DNA of 38,572 nt from Candidatus Omnitrophota bacterium. GTDB lineage: Bacteria; Omnitrophota; Gorgyraeia; Aquiviventales; Aquiviventaceae. The stretch is from contig JACPSR010000048.1 in assembly GCA_016193175.1 (NCBI GenBank), forward strand, positions 1 through 38,572, in the 5' to 3' direction. This document shows, piece by piece, positions 26,707-34,525 of the stretch; the stretch's first letter is position 1, and the number at the start of each line of letters is the position of its first letter. Under the pieces are notes generated by a model. The model was not told the DNA's origin, searched no databases, and saw only the letters and a list, made by a program, of their open reading frames with translations. Made by a program: the position numbers and the translations under genes.

Positions 26707-30839
<4,133 letters not shown>

Positions 30840-34033: not shown

Positions 34034-34045
34034 GTGGGAGGTCTG

Positions 34046-34525
34046 ATGGCGTCTCGCGGCTTCACCCCGCACCGCACGCTCTGCTTCGCAGAGCGAAGCA
34101 TGCGGGGTGGTGCGGGGTTCACACTCGTTGAGCTCATGGTGGCTGTGTCGATCCTGGCGGGTGGCCTGGTCTTCATCGGCCGCGCCTTCCTGGCGGGAGC
34201 CACGGCCCTGGAAACCGCCCAGCATCGCCTGGAAGCCACGCAGTTCCTGGAGGCGAAGATGGATGAGCTCTACCAGCAGGCAAGGGAGCATGGCGGGATC
34301 CAGCCCGAACACCGCGAGGGCGTCATGGAGCTTGACCACCGCCCAGCGACCTGGATCTGCGACATCGTCACCGTGACGCTCAAGGAGCCTTCAGACGCCC
34401 TGGAATCCTCAGAGGCCACGGATGAACTCGCCGAGGCGCGACTCAGCCTCGTCTGGGCCGAGGGCCCAAGGGCTCAGGACGTGGTCCTGGTTACCTACCT
34501 GGACGCCAAACGACCAGCGCCATGA
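34046..34525 (+). CDS. gspI: GspI-like minor pseudopilin
   Basis: GAGFTLVELMVAVSILAGGLVFIGRAFLAGATALETAQHRLEATQFLEAKMDELYQQ; strong SD GGTGGGAGG before ATG 34046. Confidence 0.82.
   Translation: MASRGFTPHRTLCFAERSMRGGAGFTLVELMVAVSILAGGLVFIGRAFLAGATALETAQHRLEATQFLEAKMDELYQQAREHGGIQPEHREGVMELDHRPATWICDIVTVTLKEPSDALESSEATDELAEARLSLVWAEGPRAQDVVLVTYLDAKRPAP
34064..34118 (+). repeat. Nested palindromic element inside the prepilin leader coding sequence
   Basis: Outer arms ACCCCGCACC (34064-34073)/GGTGCGGGGT (34109-34118); inner 8-bp stem CGCTCTGC (34077-34084)/GCAGAGCG (34088-34095); overlapping alternative stem GCTTCG (34083-34088)/CGAAGC (34094-34099). Confidence 0.85.

Follow-up and report, generated by a model that had tools for sequence, protein, structure and literature searches.

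A palindromic block in the gspI prepilin leader of an Omnitrophota bacterium is probably a copy of a dispersed mobile repeat

The gspI leader and its palindromic block

The window analysed here (the whole stretch of 38,572 nucleotides of contig JACPSR010000048.1 from a Candidatus Omnitrophota bacterium) carries a type II secretion system (T2SS) operon with the order GspE/F/PilM-PilN(L)/M/I/J/K/G, that is, gspE-F-L-M-I-J-K-G. Our subject is gspI, whose leader codons contain a palindromic block. The open reading frame (34034–34525, + strand) was assigned to the minor pseudopilin GspI from its Pfam N_methyl match (E=1.9e-5), which covers the prepilin cleavage motif (PF07963), from its orthologues and from its place in the operon, where the order is gspM-gspI-gspJ. 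Translation probably starts at ATG 34046, with a GGAGG Shine-Dalgarno-like region 5' of it (34037–34041, + strand). From this ATG the gene encodes MASRG followed by F-T; the 57-bp block comes next, after which G^FTLVELMV is read once more, so that the leader with the block has 24 residues. We take the MASRG codons (34046–34060, + strand) as ancestral, and the sequence together with the N_methyl profile places the putatively rebuilt prepilin peptidase site, G^FTLVE, at 34115–34132 (+ strand).

The block (34066–34122) comprises 19 codons without stops and lies between two direct repeats on the + strand, GGCTTCAC (34058–34065) and GGGTTCAC (34115–34122), which are equal at 7/8 bases. In the original prediction these were described as GGC TTC AC recurring as GGG TTC AC 57 bp apart, and they can be read directly in the sequence, in frame with ATG 34046. 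The nested perfect inverted repeats proposed there are present as well: the 10-bp outer arms are ACCCCGCACC (34064–34073) and GGTGCGGGGT (34109–34118), and the 8-bp inner stem is formed by CGCTCTGC and GCAGAGCG (34077–34084 and 34088–34095). The overlapping alternative stem also exists, with a length of 7 bp instead of the 6 bp originally given (GCTTCGC/GCGAAGC, 34083–34089 and 34093–34099). Folding of the block was far more stable than that of shuffled sequences (z = -3.8 as RNA and -7.8 as DNA; none of 200 shuffles was equally stable), and the inner 19-mer, for which 0.02 matches per window are expected by chance when up to 3 mismatches are allowed, had its sole match in the window at the gspI site. 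Deletion of the 57 bp in silico yielded MASRGFTLVELMVAV and a protein start MASRG^FTLVELMVAV, i.e. the normal short prepilin leader that had been predicted. A scan for promoters and terminators at the insert site found nothing.

The ends of the block can be parsed in two ways. The alternative to the 8-bp parse is an exact 4-bp duplication, TTCA (34061–34064 and 34118–34121), around a 53-bp palindromic element (CCCCGCACC...GGTGCGGGG, 34065–34117, without assigned strand) that amounts to 57 bp when one duplicate is included. The target duplication of the window copy would accordingly be either TTCA or GGNTTCAC (7/8), and the uninterrupted gspI target would read GGNTTCACAC.

Copies of the repeat in other genes and genomes

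Within the block lies a 38-bp core (34070–34107, - strand, 60.9 bits) with two helices that show compensatory changes. A covariance model of this core, R1, was used to search the window's own genome, a sister species and 59 relatives. It matched 7 places in the own genome, as expected if the block is a dispersed repeat, about 20 places in the sister species, and at least one place in 18 of the 59 relatives, mainly in one Omnitrophota family, with few matches elsewhere in the class. By BLAST, one further copy was recovered from the own genome and about 20 from relatives, all of one family; two more BLAST matches (L054 and L042), which fall in coding DNA, were dismissed as due to chance. The common plan of the copies is CCCCGCA-T-GCTTCGC-NNN-GCGAAGC-N6-TGCGGGG. 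Both stems show compensatory changes, and the consensus ends are CCCCGCATGCTTCGC...TGCGGGG. Helix covariation was 0.165 compared with 0.072 in shuffled alignments, and 93.6% of cells in the helices were paired compared with at most 48% when the helices were slid. The inner hairpin GCTTCGC-AGA-GCGAAGC (34083–34099 in the window, without assigned strand) is present in other copies, while the outermost flanks, in which TGCGGGGT is duplicated at 34101 and 34111, are an extension peculiar to the window copy. At two loci of one relative (L297 and L314, on contigs C34 and C39 of genome G020), the repeat is embedded in a long structured non-coding stretch common to both (GGCGGGTGACGCCGAGGGGAGGCC...CGAGGCGGCAGG.CCCGCC); L036 and L043, where Rfam gave no match, denote these same two places.

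The copies lie in quite different surroundings. Some are translated in frame within conserved proteins, namely NuoC (PF00329), SSB (PF00436), a dienelactone hydrolase (DLH, PF01738) and the HATPase domain of a histidine kinase (PF02518), as well as at the N-terminus of an HD-GYP protein and the C-terminus of RuvA; in NuoC the copy accounts for 13 residues beyond the Pfam profile. Others lie within RNA genes: one in RNase P RNA (L320 1470–1827, - strand, RF00010, 159 bits) and five in c-di-GMP-I-GGC riboswitches (L040, L309, L313, L321 and L325). An intergenic copy lies between tRNA genes (L002). The c-di-GMP-I-GGC riboswitches of Omnitrophota carry the R1 palindrome or other hairpins (L040 1455–1554, L309 1485–1584, L313 1444–1562, L321, L325, L046, L051, L050 and L058 12860–12970), often one or two in tandem between GGACG and CAAAGCC or within the last stem.

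Long leaders are known in some type IV pilins, and one could therefore regard the gspI leader as ancestral and its codons as palindromic by chance. Homologous DNA in intergenic, RNA and unrelated protein loci already contradicts this explanation, as does a gspI orthologue with a leader of only five residues (see below), and we consider it scarcely tenable.

Orthologous sites and the case for insertion

Comparison of gspI orthologues showed that the long leader is not common to all. One orthologue (L055, 38% identical) has a 5-residue leader, MREKS^FTLVEL. In the nearest one (G022, 49% identical) the leader consists of a wholly different palindrome (GGAAGAACTGAAGAAC...GTTCTTCCGTTCTTC) in the same place. 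When the own genome (G000) is compared with the sister species (G001), other palindromes are present in one and cleanly absent from the other; one of them is accompanied by a 9-bp target duplication, TTATTCCAG, while others have none. The former is a 109-bp palindrome (L283/L208) that is present in G001 and absent from G000, which marks a recent insertion. A second hairpin family (TCCGCCAAA..TTGGCGGA plus CCGCCAC..GTGGCGG; L207 about 10519 and L211 about 5764) shows no target duplication at its insertion points, one of which lies within a heptad tandem repeat. With respect to terminal inverted repeats and a fixed duplication, the mark of DDE-type miniature inverted-repeat transposable elements (MITEs), the window copy may have a duplication of 4 or of 8 (7/8) bp, and the other palindromes of the genus have 9 bp or none.

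Neither of the two findings named in the original prediction as refuting it was made, since the genome has other copies and the long leader is not shared by the orthologues. Taken together, the copies elsewhere, the 19 stop-free codons and the insert-free orthologue bear out the proposal of a small palindromic mobile repeat in the leader with the frame preserved: very probably, the gspI block derives from a short, dispersed and mobile palindromic repeat, one copy of which was inserted into the leader codons with duplication of a few target bases. The copy numbers of R1 show that the repeat is dispersed, and for other palindromes of the same genomes gain and loss are visible at empty sites in the sister species. 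The repeat now sits in the gspI leader, which lacks it in one orthologue and has a different element in another. Duplication of a few target bases would have rebuilt the G^FT cleavage site, and the reading frame would have been kept because the block is 57 bp long and contains no stops. Prepilin peptidase would then remove the longer leader and, because the cleavage motif is intact, probably leave the same mature N-terminus.

Several observations weigh against this reading. Among relatives, none was found that is nearly identical and has an empty gspI site, and a scan of GTDB contigs yielded no gspI closer than L055; because the closest orthologues are 38–49% identical, both the precise ends of the window copy and its target duplication are deduced. 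The flanking repeat has one mismatch (GGC/GGG), and the window copy deviates from the consensus by its extra outer arms. No transposase could be tied to the repeat among the genes inspected (one RAYT-like Y1_Tnp gene, on contig C80 of G000, was inspected, and a second, on C61, was not). Finally, the own-genome assembly is a fragmented metagenome-assembled genome of 162 contigs that is 87% complete, and contig ends (C21:1-38) hold some of the repeat copies, as would fit an artefact of assembly or binning. However, the block stands inside a 38-kb contig, with the reading frame unbroken to its left and right, and copies of the family occur in many genomes, so that an artefact is hardly credible.

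Could the hairpin instead have been retained for a function in gspI, either by lowering or tuning translation or by supplying a start codon? The structure straight after the start codon is very stable (-58.5 kcal/mol over 111 nt), and an in-frame ATG within the insert would give a standard leader, MRGGAG^FTLVE (MRGGAG codons at 34100–34117, + strand), at the very position where the N_methyl profile match begins. However, orthologues manage without the block or with another sequence, and ATG 34100, which lies inside the hairpin and lacks a good Shine-Dalgarno sequence, is for that reason a candidate start only, whereas ATG 34046 has GGAGG. A retained function thus appears improbable to us, and insertion of a mobile repeat remains the preferred explanation.

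Other repeats in prepilin leaders

The gspI leader is not the only one that contains repeats. The same genomes carry heptad tandem-inverted repeats (e.g. GGATTGCGGATTGCGGATTG...CAATCCGCAATCC), which a strict Watson-Crick palindrome score missed; a period-7 score was therefore added. An N-masked contig (L162) that gave a false palindrome peak was excluded. In the own genome such repeats were found in 8/23 prepilin leaders and in 14/440 other gene starts (odds ratio 16, p 2e-6), and in relatives in 28/146 leaders and 26/791 other gene starts (odds ratio 7, p 1e-10); these ratios are estimates, because genes were predicted mechanically, the thresholds were chosen by inspection, and the stretches taken from relatives surround prepilin clusters. 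Ordinary signal or membrane N-termini were not enriched (3/72 and 11/192), and the few with repeats were, by eye, mostly GspK/PilX-type substrates of prepilin peptidase. Among prepilin motifs of mostly other phyla, 3/135 reached the thresholds. Leaders filled by heptad repeats include L244, L245, L278, L279 and L281 in relatives and L135, L140, L142, L146 and L151 in the own genome, with examples such as ..NPQSAISLG^FTLVELL and ..TAYCLLPTAYCQRA^FTLVELL. In an unrelated phylum, one of the three leaders that reached the thresholds, from Allosphingosinicella (L099), has an apparent hairpin repeat, CTCCTGCGAAAGTAGGAG..TTCCTGCTTTCGCAGGAA, in the same place.

Prepilin leaders thus stand out as a hotspot, in which several unrelated repeats, palindromic as well as heptad-tandem, are found. 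The most likely cause is that the cleaved leader tolerates insertion: it is short, cytoplasmic and discarded, and would need little besides basic residues and Gly at -1. That the hotspot is shared by many unrelated repeats supports such tolerance. Over the 120 nt that lead up to the cleavage site, heptad-repeat density was 2.83/kb in the own genome and 1.6/kb in relatives, compared with 0.27/kb (p 1e-5) and 0.49/kb (p 4e-6) in non-coding DNA, a class that is approximate because gene prediction was crude. As leader density exceeds even that of non-coding DNA, there is room for target preference, and some mechanism might favour the conserved prepilin codons or their transcripts; the absence of enrichment at ordinary membrane and signal N-termini points the same way. 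So does an Omnitrophota prepilin (L058 13050–13240, leader RGFAPLD...CLTG^FTLIE, with a riboswitch upstream), in which an unrelated perfect 12-bp inverted repeat (CCCCGTTAGACA/TGTCTAACGGGG) is inserted at the very same G^FT codons. On the other hand, many unrelated repeat families share the one site, most stop 1–4 codons before the cleavage Gly with no fixed base, and the same repeats are found outside leaders too, in proteins, in RNA genes and in ordinary intergenic DNA. We therefore regard targeted insertion as unlikely for the gspI block. That several unrelated palindromic repeats prefer the leader codons of this Omnitrophota family as a landing site, instead of merely being tolerated there, is a slightly better prospect, though still a doubtful one.

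Elsewhere in the operon, the GspE N-terminus (window 28966–29320) contains two tandem blocks that are almost identical, the product of a recent internal duplication that either precedes or overlaps the MshEN domain.

Discussion

Protein-coding palindromes are known from two genera of intracellular Alphaproteobacteria, Rickettsia and Wolbachia. The Omnitrophota repeat has the features of this kind: it lies in frame in unrelated conserved genes, it occurs in intergenic DNA and RNA genes, and an insert-free orthologue exists. The original prediction called the gspI block REP/RPE-like. The second half of this label holds by behaviour, as the palindromic elements of Rickettsia (RPE) and of Wolbachia (Ogata et al.; reviewed in PMC2229807) are likewise short palindromes found in frame in conserved protein genes and in RNA genes. 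RPE are specific to Rickettsia, measure 105–146 bp and also occur within tmRNA and RNase P RNA (PMC2229807). Both RPE and the Omnitrophota repeat are thus found in RNase P RNA; the latter has 38–57 bp, and the likeness drawn here is one of behaviour. Unlike RPE, palindromic insertions in Omnitrophota are concentrated in prepilin leaders and riboswitches.

The first half of the label did not hold. Repetitive extragenic palindromic (REP) sequences, i.e. GTAG- and CGTC-tagged palindromes associated with RAYT transposases (PMC3733652), resemble the repeat in being dispersed 20–40-bp hairpins that sometimes lie in genes and form mosaic clusters. However, no GTAG or CGTC tag is found at the foot of the 38-bp core and no hairpin copies flank the inspected RAYT-like gene, and membership was rejected. 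Another parallel is the Yersinia palindromic sequence, a bacterial MITE that forms part of a signal peptide (PMC2229807) and is likewise a mobile repeat supplying residues of an N-terminal export signal; in Omnitrophota, in contrast, the insert lengthens a prepilin leader that was already present, and the same site is affected in many genes. The heptad tandem-inverted repeats of the same genomes resemble the gspI block in landing place and in-frame translation, but have an unrelated sequence and period-7 arms, and no published name for them was found in the papers searched. A literature search for prepilin leaders together with palindromic repeats returned nothing relevant, most subscription literature lying outside its reach. 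Protein-coding palindromes are therefore already known as a kind, while nothing was found in the papers searched on this family, on such palindromes in this phylum or on a hotspot in prepilin leaders.

A family in Omnitrophota with an RPE-like habit means that the habit is not bound to the alphaproteobacterial lineage. Unrelated repeats that recur at the discarded prepilin leader provide a natural gauge of how little sequence a leader requires, and make it a place to ask whether small repeats choose their targets or whether selection merely filters them. If leader codons were indeed a preferred landing site, the pilin leaders of secretion systems and pili would be continually rewritten by mobile DNA, with the mature proteins unchanged.
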